Program-made: the position numbers and the translations under genes | IMG/VR virus record: IMGVR_UViG_3300036715_003261 | Span: 1 to 64,000 of that record | Length of the DNA stretch: 64,000 bases | Strand: one strand, 5' to 3' | Origin: a virus | The notes under the pieces: generated by a model | Databases searched by the model: none | Told to the model about the DNA's origin: nothing | The model's input: only the letters and a program-made list of their open reading frames with translations | Shown here: piece by piece, positions 12,528-48,129 of the stretch | How the letters are laid out: every line of letters starts with the position of its first letter | Position numbering within the stretch: position 1 is the first letter of the stretch

Positions 12528-12603
12528 TGGAGACCCCCACGGGGGTCGAACCCGTGACCGAAAGTTTCATCACACTTCCGCTCTACCACTGAGCTAGGGG
12601 GCC
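12528..12603 (-). tRNA. tRNA with an 8-nt anticodon loop (anticodon GAU-like, uncertain)
   Basis: The minus strand folds as a full cloverleaf: acceptor GGCCCCC/GGGGGTC, UA at 8-9, D-arm GCTC..GAGC, five-base variable region, T-arm ACGGG-TTCGACC-CCCGT, and an encoded CCA. The anticodon stem GAAGT/ACTTT encloses eight bases, GTGATGAA, instead of seven. Counting U33 as the second base, the anticodon would read GAT, with one extra base on the 3' side. Such loops occur in frameshift-suppressor and in nuclease-evading tRNAs. Confidence 0.7.
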
Positions 12604-12608
12604 AGTCG

Positions 12609-12681
12609 CGGAAACCACGGGGCTCGAACCCGTCATCCCAAGACCATCAATCTTGGTGCTGCACCCGGCAGCTCGGAATCC
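12609..12681 (-). tRNA. Degenerate tRNA, Ile(GAU)-like
   Basis: T-arm ACGGG-TTCGAGC-CCCGT and anticodon arm CAAGA-TTGATGG-TCTTG (anticodon GAT, Ile) are good. The acceptor stem (GGATTCC/GGTTTCC) has two central U-U mismatches, position 8 is G instead of U, and no CCA is encoded. It may be a decaying tRNA or one that needs repair or editing. Confidence 0.5.
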
Positions 12682-12755
12682 AGTAGTCCACGTTGCGAAC
12701 GTCACGCACAACGCGAACAACGCGTTTCGTAATACTATCAGCACGTGCAGAAAGA

Positions 12756-12829
12756 TGGGCGGGAAGATGGGGTCGAACCACCGACCTTGATTCTTGCGAA
12801 CCAAAGCTCTACCACTGAGCTATTCCCGC
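12756..12829 (-). tRNA. tRNA with Gly-like body and non-canonical anticodon loop
   Basis: The 5' part, GCGGGAATAGCTCAGTGG, is close to bacterial tRNA-Gly. The acceptor stem (GCGGGAA/TTCCCGC), D-arm and T-arm (GGTGG/CCATC with one G-U) pair well. The anticodon arm pairs as TTGGT/ATCAA around eight bases, TCGCAAGA, or with one more pair around six, but never around seven, and lacks a clear U33. GCA (Cys) or CGC (Ala) can be read. The identity is unresolved. Confidence 0.6.
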
Positions 12830-12831
12830 AG

Positions 12832-12903
12832 AGACCTCGCGTGGAGTTGAACCACGTGTCGCCGGGCTAGAAGTCCGGTGCTCTATCGTTGAGCTACGAG
12901 GCC
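12832..12903 (-). tRNA. tRNA-Arg(UCU)
   Basis: Cloverleaf with acceptor GGCCTCG/CGAGGTC, D-arm GCTC..GAGC, T-arm CGTGG/CCACG, and anticodon loop CTTCTAG, giving anticodon TCT for the AGA codon, rare in GC-rich genomes. The innermost anticodon-stem pair is A-C. No CCA is encoded. Confidence 0.75.
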
Positions 12904-13635: not shown

Positions 13636-13780
13636 ACGCCGGCGAATCCTTACGGTCGATGCATTTGTGTCCCTACGGTAGGGCGGCTCCCCGCCCCTGT
13701 CAAGGGGGCTAAACTGACCTCTGGAATCGGGCATAAGGATGTGAAGGGTATGCGGCATAAACATCCGCTCAAGGTTCATC
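13636..13780 (+). other. Intergenic region with several palindromes
   Basis: No gene seen. It contains CGACGCCGGCG, the 6-bp palindrome CCCTAC-G-GTAGGG (about 13671-13683) and a GGGCGG-CTCC-CCGCCC hairpin (13681-13696). Two GGCATAA elements follow (about 13731 and 13752), the latter as GCGGCATAAAC, a string also found at about 18561 before another gene. It probably holds the regulatory region of the lipoprotein gene. Confidence 0.4.
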
Positions 13781-14569
13781 ATGAAGACAGTCTTCCTCTG
13801 CCTGGTTCTGGTTTCAGCGTGTAGCCCCGCAGGTGCTGGCGCCAACGGTACGATGGGTGATCCGGGACCTGAGGGCCCGCAAGGCTCGGCGGGGCCGCAG
13901 GGCTCGGCGGGGCCGCAGGGGCCGCAAGGCCCTCAGGGGGCGCAAGGCCTGCAAGGTCCTCAGGGGCTTCAAGGCGCCACGGGTGCCACGGGTGCCACGG
14001 GTGCGGTAGGACCGATGGGTCCACAAGGTCCCGCAGGCAGTCCTGGCGCGACGGGGTCGCAAGGCGCAACGGGCGCTCAAGGCCCTCAAGGCTCTGCCGG
14101 GCCGCAGGGGCCCAAGGGCAGCGTGGGCCCCGTAGGCCCCGTAGGCCCGGGTGCCGTAGTGTTCGATTACGGCGGGGCTCGTCTCGGCGTCTTGCTGAGC
14201 GCGACGCCTGGCCAAGAGGCGTACATCTCTCAAGGTGACCAGTACACGCTGGTGCCTGATGGGCTCATCGTTCCGATGAACCACACCACCCAACCGGTGT
14301 ACTACACCAACAACAACTGCACAGGTACGCCGTACGCCGTGCCTGGGCACGGCTATGTGGCCAACGACGACTACGTGTACATCGGCTTCGGCAACGCCTT
14401 GTACACGGCATCCGCGTCCCTGACGGGAAACTTGGCTGTCCAGTCGTTCTCGACAGGAGGCGGGAGTTGTATGTCCTCGAGCCTGGGTACACAACTACAC
14501 GCGATGACGAGCGTGGGGTCGCCCATTGACCCTGTTGGGTCGATGCCATGGCATATCGTCCTCCAATGA
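13781..14569 (+). CDS. Collagen-like lipoprotein
   Basis: 262 residues. A short signal peptide ends in a lipobox (V-S-A-C, Cys14), so the product should be lipidated and exported. Residues about 26-128 are an almost unbroken run of Gly-x-y triplets (GPQ, GAT, GPM types), expected to form a collagen-like triple helix. A 130-residue globular C-terminal domain rich in Tyr, Asn and Ser with several Cys follows. Expressed during infection, it could coat the host surface, for example for superinfection exclusion or adhesion. That role is inference. Its stop overlaps the next gene's start. Confidence 0.75.
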
Positions 14570-14760
14570 AGCCGACGCTCGAGGCGATGTCTCGGGTCAT
14601 CACGTTCGCACTCATCGACGCGGTCTCCGAAGACATGAAGCTATCTAAAGGGAAGGCCAAGAAGGCCATCCTGCGAGGCAGGGTCTCGGTGGACGGGGTT
14701 GTAACCCTGGACCCTGGAACCCGGGTTCACGGCGACTCGAAGATCGTCTTCACTCCCTAG
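14566..14760 (+). CDS. Small S4-like RNA-binding domain protein
   Basis: 64 residues starting at ATG14566, which overlaps the lipoprotein stop (ATGA). The segment [20 protein letters not shown]...PGTRV fits the S4 RNA-binding fold (K.a..li..GrV.VnG.v...p...v). It is about the size of a lone S4 domain, as in ribosome-rescue and heat-shock RNA-binding proteins. The RNA partner is unknown. Confidence 0.6.
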
Positions 14761-14763
14761 AAG

Positions 14764-14861
14764 GCCCGGCTGGCCAAGAAAGGAGGTGATATCTACATGG
14801 ATATCCGAGACCTCCGCTAATAGAACAAGCGAAACAGCCGAGAGAAACCGCTAACCGGGCT
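14764..14861 (+). promoter_or_regulatory. Structured RNA leader with sequestered ribosome site
   Basis: Two nested helices can form. An outer one pairs GCCCGG (14764-14769) with CCGGGC (14855-14860). An inner one pairs GGAGGT-GATATC (14782-14793) with GATATC (14800-14805) and ACCTCC (14810-14815), with a four-base bulge. The inner stem hides the strong Shine-Dalgarno GGAGGT and puts the ATG (14797) in its six-base loop. That ATG opens a seven-codon reading frame (MDIRDLR) followed by TAA TAG. It looks like a translational switch or attenuator for the gene downstream. Confidence 0.5.
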
Positions 14862-14877
14862 GGACATCGCTCGGAAG

Positions 14878-15254
14878 ATGGTCGAGACGCTCGACCCAGA
14901 TTTGCCGGTGCTCGTTCATTCGATGTCGCGTGAACGAGATCAAGCAATCAACATGCTGCGTACCGCGGGATTTGCGATGAAACAAAAGACGCGCTCGACC
15001 ACGTCGTCGTCGCGGCGCTCAAGTTCGCAAAGCTCACCAACCGCGACATGGTAGTAGGCTTCATCAGCGATGCGGTCGTCGTGATGCCGGTTGCGCACAT
15101 GCTCCTTGACGTCGTGGTTGCCATCGTGCGTGCGGACTCGACAGCGGCAGAGCTGAAGATTCAGGTCGCGCTGTTCATGGCAGGCCTGACGTCGAGGGTG
15201 GCAATGCATGCGCGGATGAGCGAGACGCGAGACGTGTCACCGAACGCGAACTAA
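14878..15254 (+). pseudogene. Frameshifted small gene (two frames needed)
   Basis: One frame gives MVETLDPDLPVLVHSMSRER, a start typical of small phage proteins, continuing to about MLRTAGFAMKQK. It then degenerates into Ser/Thr/Arg. The -1 frame carries the plausible continuation DALDHVVVAALKFAKLTNRD, on through MVVGFISDAVVVMP to the stop at 15254. The switch would fall near the A-rich GATGAAACAAAAGAC (about 14979). No classic -1 slippery heptamer is present, so gene decay or a sequencing error is as likely as programmed frameshifting. Confidence 0.5.
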
Positions 15255-15272
15255 CTAGGCCATAATGGCCCG

Positions 15273-15344
15273 GCCCTTCTAGCTCAGAGGTAGAGCAGCT
15301 GATTTGTAATCAGCAGGTCGTGGGTTCAATTCCTACGAGGGGCT
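15273..15344 (+). tRNA. tRNA-Thr(UGU)
   Basis: Canonical cloverleaf on the plus strand: acceptor GCCCTTC/GAGGGGC (one U-G), D-arm GCTC..GAGC, anticodon arm GCTGA-TTTGTAA-TCAGC with anticodon TGT, T-arm GTGGG/CCTAC, and discriminator T with no encoded CCA. Unlike several members of the 12.5-kb cluster, its anticodon loop is a normal seven bases. Confidence 0.9.
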
Positions 15345-15390
15345 CGACACAATTCTAACGGTCCTGACGGACCAAGGAGACCTGACGGTC

Positions 15391-17058
15391 ATGTCCAAGG
15401 CTACTGCTACGGCATCGAATCGGACGTCCATCCCGAAGATGGACACCAAGGCGGAGGTTCCCGCCACCAACAACAAGCCGTCCATCTGGACGCGTATCAA
15501 GACTGCGGCCAAGAAGACCGCGGCGTTCATCGCGAAGCCGTTCAAGGCGATCGGACGGACGACCAAGAGCCTCGCGAAGCGCATGGCGGCGGCGCTCACG
15601 AAGGTCGCGAAGAAGGTTGTTCCGGCGCTGCGCTGGACCCCGAAGTACGCGCAGTACATGATGTACCGTGCGAAGTACGCGGCGAAGCCCGTCACGAACT
15701 TCTTCGGCAAGCTCTGGCAATGGTCGCTCAAGCCCATCTGCCAGGTGGTGCTCGGTGTTGTGGCGGTCACGCTGCTCTTCGTCGGTGCGGCCATCGCGCC
15801 GGTCACGACGATCCTCGTGCTCGCAGGTACGGCCGTTCTCACGCTGCTTCTCGCGCGCGCTCTCCAGGCGCTCGAGGCTGCAGAAGGCCACTCGAAGGCG
15901 GCGCGGTTCACGCTGCGCGGTCTCGAGATCATTGCACGCATCGGGCGTGCGGTGCTGTACACGGCAGCAGGCGCTCTGGTGGTCGTGGCGTGCATGGCGA
16001 GCGCGGCCACCGCACTCTACGTCGCGACGTTCATCGTGCTGTCGTATCTCCAGGTGCGGGGCGCGAGCAGCTTCGCGTTCTACGTCTGGTGCGTGGCGAC
16101 CGGCAGCTGGGGCACGCTGCTGCTCTTCGCGCTTCTCGATTCGACGCTCTACTTGATGCGCTCTCGTTCGGCGCAGACTCGGCGCGCGGCGCAGGAGCAG
16201 GAGCAGGAGAAGTACGAGGAATCTTTGCGTACGAAGTACGAGGAGTCCCTGCGCGCGGCACAGGTACGGTATGCCGCACAGGAGCAAGCTGCGCAGGCGG
16301 AGCACGAGGCGTTCATGCGTGAGACGAAGCCGATGTGGGATCGCGCGGCGCCCAAGCAGGCTTCGGTTCAGAAGGACATCACGCCGGCAAACGCTCCGGG
16401 CCAGCCGCACCTCTGGACGCGTGGGAACTTCCTGTGCGCGAAGGGTACCGAGGAGCTGTGGGGCACGTCGCACGATGTTGACCCCGCGTCGTATGTGGAC
16501 GTCGACGACGGCGACGAAGTGCACTCGGCAGGCGATTGCCAGGCGTGCGGCGAGTCGATGGCGGGCAGCTGGCAGTCAGACACGTTCTGCATCAAGTGCG
16601 TTGGTGCGAAACTCGAAGACGAGGCGCTGATCCGTACGGGAGTGTCGCTCAAGGCGCGGAACGTGCGTGTGCCGCTGACGCAGGCGGGCATGGAAGCCCA
16701 GCCGGCGTACGTTGCGTCGAAGAACCCGGCCACGCCCCTCCAGTGGTTGGTGACCGTGAAGTTCCGCACGCGGGACAACGTCGAGCATCCGCGCGAGTGG
16801 AGCCTGCTCGATGCGGGCGATGTCGTGGGAACGGTCGTCTACGACAACGACACCCGCCGGTTCACGACGAACGCATTGGGCGAAACGCTCAAGGCAGTCG
16901 ACGGGTCGGACCGCAGTGAGGTCGCGGCGAAGCGCCTCGTCTACGACATCGTGTCGGACGCGCGTAACGCGCTCGACAACATGTTGTCGAAGGACGAGAA
17001 GGACGAGGGCGTCCTCGCGAAGGTCTTTGAGGGGGCCTTCGTCGGGAAGAAGGCTTGA
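15391..17058 (+). CDS. Large polytopic membrane protein with coiled coil and zinc-ribbon
   Basis: 555 residues. A very basic N-terminal region (30-110) precedes a membrane domain of about four to five helices (roughly 117-137, 139-158, 188-222, 228-252). A charged coiled coil with a repeated KYEESLR segment (about 260-325) follows, then a CQACGES...CIKC four-cysteine site near 385-405, and an acidic C-terminal domain. No family was recognised. The layout suggests a membrane scaffold facing the cytoplasm. AAGGAG precedes the ATG. It is the largest rightward gene here. Confidence 0.6.
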   Translation: MSKATATASNRTSIPKMDTKAEVPATNNKPSIWTRIKTAAKKTAAFIAKPFKAIGRTTKSLAKRMAAALTKVAKKVVPALRWTPKYAQYMMYRAKYAAKPVTNFFGKLWQWSLKPICQVVLGVVAVTLLFVGAAIAPVTTILVLAGTAVLTLLLARALQALEAAEGHSKAARFTLRGLEIIARIGRAVLYTAAGALVVVACMASAATALYVATFIVLSYLQVRGASSFAFYVWCVATGSWGTLLLFALLDSTLYLMRSRSAQTRRAAQEQEQEKYEESLRTKYEESLRAAQVRYAAQEQAAQAEHEAFMRETKPMWDRAAPKQASVQKDITPANAPGQPHLWTRGNFLCAKGTEELWGTSHDVDPASYVDVDDGDEVHSAGDCQACGESMAGSWQSDTFCIKCVGAKLEDEALIRTGVSLKARNVRVPLTQAGMEAQPAYVASKNPATPLQWLVTVKFRTRDNVEHPREWSLLDAGDVVGTVVYDNDTRRFTTNALGETLKAVDGSDRSEVAAKRLVYDIVSDARNALDNMLSKDEKDEGVLAKVFEGAFVGKKA

Positions 17059-45291: not shown

Positions 45292-48129
45292 TCAAGTCAA
45301 GACGATGGAACCGAGAGCTTCCGCCACCTGATCCAAAGTTGCCAGGGACGAGATCTTGATACTCGAGAAATCGAACCCGCGCGCCTTCGGTTGCGCGCAT
45401 TCGATGAGATGGACGATCGCTGCTTGCGACGCAGTCTTTGCTGACAGCTCGGTGATGTCGGGGATGTCGTAGCCTTCGTCAGTGCGCATCGTTCCACCTG
45501 GGCGCTTGCCCAGCGTTGCTGCACCGAGAGCCGTCGTACCGACGGCAAGCGGCACCTTGAACTTGCGCATCCACGGGAACGCGGTGAGCGCCTTGTAGCC
45601 GCCCAACAGCAAACCCGTTCCACCGAGAACCTTGCCGACATGCGCACGCGTGACCGCGTCTTGTGCATCGATCGCAGCACCGCGTGTGGTGTCACCGTAC
45701 GGCGTGTGTAGCACGTCCGTCGTCGGCGCCGCATCAGGACGAAGACCGATGCCCTCGGGCACGAGCCGTCGGTAGAGCATCTCGCCAGCGTACGCGCGCT
45801 TCTCGCGAACGTTCGCGAAGAACGGCATCAAGGTGTTCGCGATCTTCGACGACTCGAGCGCGCTACTCTCGATCAGCTCGTCCAGAATCTCTGGACGGTC
45901 AGCGAATATGTTGAGCGACCAACGCGCGGCTGCAGCCACCTTGGCAAGCGTGTACGGAGACAGCTGCAATATCTGACCGGCAAGCTTGGTAGATGCAAGC
46001 GCAATGAACTCGGCGTCCTTGAAGACAACGCCGTTGGTCGCTGCAGCGCTGAGCACTTCACCAAGTGGGTACATGAGCAGCTGGTTTGTGTTGATGTTCT
46101 CGGACGACGCGAGCTTGGGGCCTGCGTGATCACGGAACTTCACGATGAACGACCGCTCGTCAGGCGTGAGCGTGCTCGAGGCGAGAGGCTCGGCGCGGAT
46201 CACCTTGTCGATGTCGGAGAGTTTTTGCGATGCACCACTCTTGAGCGCGAGACGCTCCGCGATCGCTCCAAGCTCTGCGGAGAGCCGTACCTCGTGAACG
46301 TAGGCGACCTTCTTGAGCGTGTAGCCGGTGCGATCGGCGGGACGGAACACGCGCGAGATGTCGAAGAAGTCGGGCGAGGGGTTGTGGACGTAGTCCTTGA
46401 ACCCGTTCTCGTCGACCTGGTTCATCGCGAACTTCACGTGATCGCAGTAGTCCGCGCGCGTGGGCGCTTCGTTGCCACAACGGGCGCAGACATCGCGCTT
46501 GATGCGACAGTTGTGAACCGCTAGCCCCTCGATGAGGTAGCTCTCGTCTTCCTCGACCTCTAGATTGTAGACGTCCGTCTCCATGTAACGCGCGTCGATC
46601 TCGCGGATGGGGGTGCAAACGTACTCGTCGACGATTTTCCGGCTTTCCTTCTTGGCCAGGACTTCGTGCGCCACCACCTTGGCGCAGACCCCTCGCAGTC
46701 GATGGGCCCATTGTGCGCCGATGTGGACGACCCATTCGTACGTGTCTGTCGCGCTGAAGCCGCTGCCCGCTTTGTGGGTGAGTTGATTGCACGAGGCGAG
46801 GATGCCCAAACGCGGCAACATGCGCGTCCACTGCGCGGCGAGCGCGTCCGACGCCGTTGAAATCTTGAGCCACCCGTCACGTCCGCACCCGTCGCCGTTG
46901 GCGTACGCGCCGAACATCTCGCGCTGCATCGCCGTGTTCCACTGCATTGCCGCCGGTGACAACTGCTTGGTCTTCGCCAAGGCGCTGCCGTGCGTGTAAC
47001 ACAGGGCCGCAAGACGATCGTCACAGACCAGAATGCCGCGCGCCTCGGACGTGTTCTTGCGTTCGAACGTCCAGGGCGCGTTTCGTGTTCCGAACTCGGC
47101 GCACAGCGCAGCAATCTCGCCGTGGACCGCGTCGTCCTTGTGCGTTGTCAGCTCGATGGCGTAGGGCGCGCCGTCGCGCCAGATGATGTGACCTTCGGCA
47201 AGGTAGTAGCCGAACAGGCGTGCGAACGCGCGGGTCAGGTACTCGGGCGACGTCTCTGTCCGATCGATGGGTGCAAGCAGGAGCTGGTCATCGAGACAGT
47301 TCGCGTGCGTCCAATCACCCTGCACCTTGGCATCGTCCCGCCACTTCCACTTCGCGCCCCCAGGCTGAAAACGCTTGACGCTCTCGAGCGGCGTCGCGAA
47401 GAACGGATGTTCTTCGGTTGCGTTAATCTCCGGATGCGCTTCCGCACGGATCGTGTAGACGTTCCCGCGATACGGACGCTTGTGTGTCTCGAGTACGCGA
47501 CGCACACGTCCCCGGTGCGTGACTACCTCGTCACCGACCAGCACGTCTTCGATGCACTTCTGGGTGCCGTCGGCCATCGTGACCTTGGCCCCCGCGAGGA
47601 AACAGCCCATGGATACAGGCACGAACTCACCGTCGCTGGCGCGCTTGACCCACTCGGGGTCCTTGTCGTTGTCGACCGAGACGAGCAGCTCCACGCGGTG
47701 CATGCGCGGGTTCCAGAACGCCTTCTTGACCACGCCGGACGCTTTGGACGGATCTCGGTTCACGTGGTGCTTGAAAGCGTGGGCAGGGTTCTTCTCGAAC
47801 GACGCGTAGTGCTCGGTCAGCTCTTCACCGGGCGGCACGAACCAGCGGCGATCGACAGACGCGATCTTGCCACGCGCGGGAACAGGGAACTCGGGGAACC
47901 CGTCACCGTTGCGGTTCGGGCCGTAGGTCTCTTCGGCGCCGAGAGCGTTGAGAAGGAGCGACGTCTTGCCCGGTTCGGGCGCGACCGCCTTGATGTAGTC
48001 GAGCGCCTCGGACGCGTACTTCGTGATGCGGCTGGTGTCGACGCTGCGCCCGTTGTTCCAGGTGAGCACGGTCTGCACTGTCGGCTCTCCCGTCGGGAAG
48101 TAGTCGTCCAGCTCGATGATCTTCTTCAC
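45292..48129 (-). CDS. Head protein (probable prohead protease) interrupted by an intein
   Basis: 945 codons, of which 365 are an intein (residues 176-540), leaving a 580-residue spliced product. The exteins join at FVPVSMG | CRIKRDVCARCG, a motif pair (vSMGC+v.xDVCsxCG) recurrent in phage head proteins. Upstream are DGFPEFP and RVELLVSVDNDKDPEW blocks; downstream is a helical C-terminal half with a hydrophobic segment (VGKVLGGTGLLLGG). Position just before scaffold and capsid genes suggests a head-maturation protease or core protein, but no catalytic triad can be named. Confidence 0.6.
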   Translation of the reverse strand: MKKIIELDDYFPTGEPTVQTVLTWNNGRSVDTSRITKYASEALDYIKAVAPEPGKTSLLLNALGAEETYGPNRNGDGFPEFPVPARGKIASVDRRWFVPPGEELTEHYASFEKNPAHAFKHHVNRDPSKASGVVKKAFWNPRMHRVELLVSVDNDKDPEWVKRASDGEFVPVSMGCFLAGAKVTMADGTQKCIEDVLVGDEVVTHRGRVRRVLETHKRPYRGNVYTIRAEAHPEINATEEHPFFATPLESVKRFQPGGAKWKWRDDAKVQGDWTHANCLDDQLLLAPIDRTETSPEYLTRAFARLFGYYLAEGHIIWRDGAPYAIELTTHKDDAVHGEIAALCAEFGTRNAPWTFERKNTSEARGILVCDDRLAALCYTHGSALAKTKQLSPAAMQWNTAMQREMFGAYANGDGCGRDGWLKISTASDALAAQWTRMLPRLGILASCNQLTHKAGSGFSATDTYEWVVHIGAQWAHRLRGVCAKVVAHEVLAKKESRKIVDEYVCTPIREIDARYMETDVYNLEVEEDESYLIEGLAVHNCRIKRDVCARCGNEAPTRADYCDHVKFAMNQVDENGFKDYVHNPSPDFFDISRVFRPADRTGYTLKKVAYVHEVRLSAELGAIAERLALKSGASQKLSDIDKVIRAEPLASSTLTPDERSFIVKFRDHAGPKLASSENINTNQLLMYPLGEVLSAAATNGVVFKDAEFIALASTKLAGQILQLSPYTLAKVAAAARWSLNIFADRPEILDELIESSALESSKIANTLMPFFANVREKRAYAGEMLYRRLVPEGIGLRPDAAPTTDVLHTPYGDTTRGAAIDAQDAVTRAHVGKVLGGTGLLLGGYKALTAFPWMRKFKVPLAVGTTALGAATLGKRPGGTMRTDEGYDIPDITELSAKTASQAAIVHLIECAQPKARGFDFSSIKISSLATLDQVAEALGSIVLT
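46510..47604 (-). mobile_element. Intein with LAGLIDADG homing endonuclease
   Basis: A 365-residue insert with all splicing marks: first residue Cys (CFLAGAKVTMADGTQKC, block A), TEEHPFF (block B, Thr238-x2-His241), DVYNLEVEEDESYLIEGLAVHN at the end (blocks F and G, His-Asn), then Cys541 as first C-extein residue. Two LAGLIDADG motifs, LFGYYLAEG (305-313) and MFGAYANGDG (405-414), keep their acidic residues (Glu312, Asp413), so the endonuclease looks active. It interrupts the most conserved stretch of the host protein, as inteins usually do. Confidence 0.9.

Follow-up and report, generated by a model that had tools for sequence, protein, structure and literature searches.

An S4-domain gene in the genome of a large phage, known from environmental DNA alone, is followed by a very short frame whose start site can fold into a hairpin, and this arrangement recurs in relatives. 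The window, i.e. the whole stretch of 64,000 nucleotides that was analysed, makes up positions 1-64000 of a virus record 104,691 bp long. The original prediction regarded the hairpin as a switch that hides a strong ribosome site and may control the next gene. Our comparison with relatives points elsewhere: the locus holds a minigene that is conserved and whose start site is very strong and structured; it is probably a real control element since the same mini-gene is found at the same place in three distant relatives. As read from its context, it is the last cistron of the S4 transcription unit and not the leader of the following gene.

The seven-codon frame and its relatives

The features around the frame are as follows.

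14548-14760, + strand: gene of a 70-aa S4-domain protein (PF01479, predicted RNA binding), with homologs in G001, G003 and G008
14764-14860, + strand: outer stem, GCCCGG 14764-14769 with CCGGGC 14855-14860, in the predicted fold and judged accidental
14777-14790, + strand: extended Shine-Dalgarno (SD) AGAAAGGAGGTGAT, exact complement to 14 nt of the 16S rRNA 3' tail
14782-14815, + strand: core hairpin with the start codon in its loop; P1 14782-14787/14810-14815, P2 14788-14793/14800-14805
14797-14820, + strand: seven-codon ORF MDIRDLR-stop, a conserved micro-ORF with homologs in G003, G001 and G008

The S4 assignment of the upstream gene comes from a PF01479 match (E 1.2e-5, 25.4 bits against a cutoff of 22.8), and the A2 profile of its protein matches the S4 domains of TyrRS, RsuA and uS4 in the PDB, with a best E of 0.0017. 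Three IMG/VR contigs match the window without difference over 12,210 bp, which makes a simple assembly error unlikely; these identical contigs carry no covariation information. Diverged relatives were found through a capsid gene, the identity of which is backed by a 41% match to the annotated major capsid protein of Salmonella phage Arash, and through a gene that, judged from its sequence, is putatively RNA polymerase-like. Protein searches of 26 large records found the S4 gene in three of them, G001, G003 and G008; the 555-aa neighbour gene is likewise present in these three. A profile search for S4 in 50 records returned these three again, together with a weak 19-aa match in G010 (E 0.04) that was left out of the lineage count. 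The comparison set is made up of four independent lineages, all uncultivated: the window, G001, G003 and G008. Their S4-domain proteins are about 62-70 aa long, and those of the relatives are 36-66% identical to that of the window.

In each lineage with the S4 gene (4/4), a micro-ORF with its own SD lies directly behind the S4 stop, with its frame open and kept, at a distance of 36 nt in the window, 34 nt in G001, 35 nt in G003 and 26 nt in G008. The gene directly before the micro-ORF is constant in all four, whereas the next genes vary. The window frame runs from ATG 14797 to TAA 14818-14820. G003 encodes the same MDIRDLR, G001 encodes VDIRPIR from a GTG start and G008 encodes MDVRPLK, each followed by a stop. 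The double stops described earlier are present in the window, where TAG follows TAA, but they are not conserved, as the relatives read TAA TAC, TAA CCT and TGA CTG at this point.

The three most diverged copies differ from one another by 8, 10 and 9 substitutions of 24, and all retain the reading frame, the position of the stop and most classes of residue. Random substitutions of equal number were as conservative and frame-keeping at a frequency of 0.0004 for window-G001, 0.0001 for window-G008 and 0.0000 for G001-G008 (20,000 trials), values which are rough because the null is simple (uniform substitutions). The window-G003 pair, separated by a single synonymous change, carries no information here (0.25). 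The only non-conservative site is codon 5, which is Asp in the window and G003 and Pro in G001 and G008. The conservative nature of the changes between copies, together with the retained stop, makes it likely that the micro-ORF is translated and selected.

Searches beyond these lineages were made in several collections. Pattern scans of IMG/VR gave six stretches, and eight with a relaxed pattern; all are known lineages or identical copies except L126, L149 and L151, which were rejected as further copies since they are located in unrelated sequence. L152, the single match from the genome collection, was rejected for the same reason, and these four stray matches lie mostly inside genes. In the 26 records the pattern scan found G003 and G008 only, G001 being one base off that pattern. 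The Phage GenBank collection held no DNA relative of 14548-15260 and no relative of the G003 S4 protein at E 0.01. Rfam covariance models run on the window and L121 detected only tRNAs, with no match in 14700-14950 even to E 5, and none of the titles listed in PMC full-text searches described such an element. Gene callers discard seven-codon ORFs, and conserved phage minigenes are therefore overlooked. The locus offers a searchable and testable signature: an S4 gene, 26-36 nt, an extended SD and the frame M-D-[IV]-R-x-[LI]-[RK]-stop.

The structured start site

The strength of the SD was assessed by its complementarity to the 16S rRNA 3' tail. The exact complement extends over 14 nt in the window, 9 nt in G001, 12 nt in G003 and 13 nt in G008; at 41 other gene starts, which a simple rule picked from the window, it spans 4-8 nt. 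The micro-ORF SD contains the sole GGAGGTGAT in the 104,691-bp record. Comparably strong extended SDs are found in G006 and G007, where they precede ordinary genes coding for about 69-267 aa and no micro-ORF; the SD of the micro-ORF is therefore rare, not unique. Further copies of GGAGGTGAT in G001, G003 and G008 were set aside, as they are not micro-ORF starts of the same type. As a separate observation, the exact TGAC-loop motif with its SD, CCTGACGG-(1-5)-AGGAG, occurs seven times in 27 records, six of them in G000, G001 and G003 at the S4/micro-ORF locus and one in G010.

The pairing that had been proposed around the AUG is present both in the sequence and in the predicted fold. P1 joins GGAGGT (14782-14787) to ACCTCC (14810-14815), P2 joins GATATC (14788-14793) to GATATC (14800-14805), and the six-base loop TACATG (14794-14799) presents ATG 14797 of the seven-codon frame, just as predicted. 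The 48-nt core has a folding energy of -15.7 kcal/mol (z -3.56) which none of 200 shuffles equalled, and the 116-nt region gives z -2.13, with 8/200 shuffles equal. Stability alone is unremarkable, because 26% of all 48-nt windows in this GC-rich sequence are as stable as -16.0 and 7/41 gene starts of the window lie at -15.6 or lower. Each copy folds in silico with its leader paired to its ORF, at a z of -3.56 for the window, -2.01 for G001, -1.59 for G003 and -3.28 for G008. Other gene starts equalled or beat the native leader-ORF duplex in 0/40 cases in the window, in G001 and in G008, and in 4/40 cases in G003. The argument that such an arrangement is unlikely by chance holds for the SD length and for the leader-ORF pairing of the window, but hairpin stability adds little to it in this GC-rich sequence. 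Swapping leaders and ORFs between lineages gave duplexes as strong as the native ones, which does not support lineage-specific compensation, and the leader-ORF pairing is therefore not lineage-specific.

The original prediction had made the hairpin depend on compensatory changes in relatives, and these are missing from the automatic four-sequence alignment (A3), on which RNAalifold found 0/5 consensus pairs compensated. By hand, one compensated pair can be seen inside P2, from A-U in the window to G-C in G001, which is weak with four sequences. The P2 of the window, GATATC/GATATC, corresponds to GATGTC/GACATC in G001, where the synonymous Asp change is matched upstream; its counterpart in G008 is GGAGTCC/GGAC(G)TCC, and P2 is lost in G003. 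Taken as compensation across lineages, these correspondences are suggestive only.

The mean unpaired probability of GGAGG is 0.02 in the window, 0.11 in G003, 0.36 in G001 and 0.38 in G008. The notion of a hidden SD fits the window and G003, where it is tightly closed, but not G001 and G008, where it is about half open. The GCCCGG/CCGGGC stem, which was thought to close the whole element, does form in the predicted fold of the window, but it looks accidental: no counterpart was seen by eye in G001, G003 or G008, and its CCGGGC arm lies inside a probable remnant of a receiver-domain gene. What the comparison upholds in the four lineages with the S4 gene (4/4) is a selected translation-initiation element consisting of the ORF, its strong SD and the leader-ORF pairing.

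The probable limits of the S4 transcription unit

Three further features of the window bear on the extent of the unit.

13708-13741, + strand: promoter-like motif, GCTAAA or TCTAAA-18 nt-CATAAGGATG, ahead of the collagen-like gene and the S4 gene
14824-15000, + strand: probable receiver-domain gene remnant that covers the C-terminal half (33% over 42 aa to a G018 ORF, E 0.0014)
15048-15254, + strand: homolog of the G003 110-aa gene that follows the receiver gene (BLASTP 43% over 74 aa, E 1e-12)

The micro-ORF is read as the last cistron of the S4 unit because promoter-like motifs bracket this unit and because stem-loops follow the micro-ORF stop in G001 and G003. Copies similar to the promoter-like motif of the window precede the homologous unit in G003 and G008; in G001 and G003 such a copy follows the micro-ORF. 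G001 (z -5.22) and G003 (z -4.27) have strong stem-loops that begin at most about ten bases past the micro-ORF stop; none is found there in G008 (z 0.27) or in the window (z -0.66). On the + strand of window 14400-15400 and of L121 1900-2700 we detected neither a T-tract terminator nor, in a promoter consensus scan, a promoter site. The genes after the micro-ORF differ among the relatives and are well separated from it, with a promoter-like motif in between in G001 and G003, and control of the next gene, as first suggested, does not agree with this arrangement.

The promoter-like sequence, in the form TCTAAA-(18)-CATAAGGATGTG, recurs in the phage family (window 13708-13741; L121 about 2275-2305), and further promoter-like copies can be seen on the - strand of L122 behind its micro-ORF, in L123 at about 1000-1050 and in L161. 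The gene ahead of S4 in the window (13781-14569) is collagen-like, with GXX repeats, a lipoprotein-like start and tail-fibre PHROG matches; in G001 a collagen-like gene was not seen directly before S4.

Further downstream, G003 carries a receiver-domain gene (Response_reg, E 3.2e-7) and then the 110-aa gene. The identity of the receiver remnant in the window is tentative because it has no Pfam match and no BLASTP match to the G003 receiver protein. In the Phage GenBank collection it gave weak chance matches only, and PHROGs provided nothing useful for the S4 protein, the remnant or ORF 15048. The homologous frame of ORF 15048 extends upstream without a start codon. We infer deletions at window 14820-15260, an apparent scar with the probable receiver remnant fused behind the micro-ORF, and the downstream stem-loop and second promoter-like motif appear to have been lost from the window.

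Possible roles of the minigene

The reading that we tentatively prefer, as possible and still short of probable, is that of a cis-acting, translated minigene of seven codons which would recruit ribosomes to the 3' end of the S4 operon. Ribosomes that end the S4 ORF would halt about 20 nt ahead of the hairpin and could re-start at the very strong SD just downstream, a presumed coupling to S4 translation. Free 30S subunits would be impeded at the micro-ORF, since its first codons pair with the leader and the start codon is kept in the hairpin loop. The ribosomes held at the micro-ORF may then affect, in cis, the 3' end of the mRNA that carries S4; this step is speculative, as is its most likely form, which would be the shielding of the mRNA or a decision on the formation of the downstream stem-loop seen in G001 and G003. 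An action of ribosomes or of the S4-domain protein on the micro-ORF, if there is one, would amount to a new translational-control arrangement, placed where a phage operon has its 3' end.

Several other explanations can be considered. Readthrough of the S4 stop, which would give the protein a C-terminal extension, would suit the window, where the gap of 36 nt is a multiple of three and the micro-ORF is in frame with S4, but in the relatives the gaps measure 34, 35 and 26 nt and the micro-ORF is out of frame; readthrough is thus refuted as a conserved feature, and its probability is close to nil. We give rather little credence to chance, i.e. an ordinary strong SD and a short frame in GC-rich DNA that are shared by descent only. 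The stability of the start region is indeed no outlier (7/41 starts; 26% of windows) and swapped leader-ORF duplexes pair equally well, but the frame length, stop and residues are kept although the S4 proteins are only 36-66% identical, the SD stands out from the gene starts of the window, and the relaxed pattern scans gave no other convincing copy. A simple SD-masking switch or RNA thermometer for a following gene is very improbable: it can draw on the closed SD of the window (0.02 unpaired) and G003 (0.11), while it is opposed by the half-open SD of G001 and G008, by next genes that vary and that in G001 and G003 have their own promoter-like motif, by an outer stem that is not conserved and by the absence of RNAalifold covariation.

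Two further explanations give the frame a product or a binding partner. The peptide M-D-[IV]-R-[DP]-[LI]-[RK] might itself be the product, either as a micropeptide acting in trans or as a leader peptide that stalls in the exit tunnel, co-expressed with the S4-domain protein. Its residues are kept or conservatively changed while the codons vary, and the very strong SD suggests high synthesis. Yet a peptide of seven residues that lacks a secretion signal can hardly have a folded function, it has no known ligand or target, the start region is structured, and an equal coding pattern is expected if translation of the ORF alone matters; we consider a functional peptide unlikely. The other option, by analogy with S4 on the E. 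coli alpha mRNA, is an autoregulatory trap in which the S4-domain protein would bind the hairpin behind its own gene and hold a 30S subunit with the start codon out of reach. The S4-domain gene adjoins the structured start site in all four lineages, G001 and G008 have a partly open SD with the start codon in a loop, and entrapment in the alpha operon, described in PMC10931766, is a precedent. However, the element stands behind the S4 gene and not before it, and the trapped cistron would have only seven codons; we consider the trap quite unlikely. Similarly doubtful, and in our estimate clearly improbable, is a phage ribosome-directed module in which a free-standing S4-domain protein would bind the structured starts of its own locus, both a seven-codon 30S trap and the small hairpins with TGAC loops that stand 0-2 nt ahead of the SD in several of the following genes.

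The preferred cis-acting minigene can be compared with known systems. In the leader of E. coli LEE4 (espADB), as PMC8708949 describes, ribosome occupancy of a six-codon minigene with a strong rbs protects the mRNA from RNase E. The phage element resembles it in its very short ORF, its strong SD and the proposed cis action of ribosome occupancy, but the LEE4 minigene precedes the protected genes while the phage micro-ORF follows S4 and closes the unit, and no homology is claimed. The axe-txe minigene (PMC8708949) also lies within an operon and acts in cis, as proposed here; unlike the phage micro-ORF, it has two codons and is located upstream of its target. With uS4 and the E. coli alpha operon (PMC10931766), the phage locus has in common an RNA-binding protein of the S4 type and a folded initiation region that could hold the 30S subunit. 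There the regulator is a full ribosomal protein and the site is a pseudoknot at the first cistron, whereas the phage has an S4-domain protein of about 62-70 aa, the binding of which is putative, and a simple predicted hairpin behind the gene. The fourU thermometer of SP-beta blyA (PMC10586365), an SD-masking RNA thermometer, likewise pairs its SD within a stem close to the start codon, but the phage hairpin has no fourU motif, masks a seven-codon ORF and, in two of the four lineages, leaves the SD half open. The short ORF and the strong stem-loops that come after it in G001 and G003 resemble a leader-peptide attenuator of the trpL type, as outlined in PMC8708949. The phage frame differs in having no run of sensor codons; a promoter-like motif, not structural genes, comes next in G001 and G003, and the stem-loop is missing in G008 and the window.

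A few other elements were observed in these genomes. Small hairpins whose loop reads TGAC (or AGAC) precede the SD in several genes, at a distance of 0-2 nt; they lie at window 15360-15379, at L121 2442-2457 and 4549-4564, and on the - strand of L122 at about 4236, 4005, 2340 and 1895; their stems vary between GGTCC/GGACC, GCCC/GGGC and ACCC/GGGT. In G008 (L123 2328-2375), inspection by eye shows that the first micro-ORF is followed by another mini-frame, Met-Arg-Ser-stop, which has a strong SD that GGACCT/AGGTCC could mask. The window contains four tRNA genes, at 12531-12903 (- strand) and 15273-15344 (+ strand), one of them just before the 555-aa gene. Finally, a 945-aa ORF at window 45292-48129 (- strand) has start and end blocks (C-F-L-A-G...V-H-N-C) which, by eye, look intein-like.
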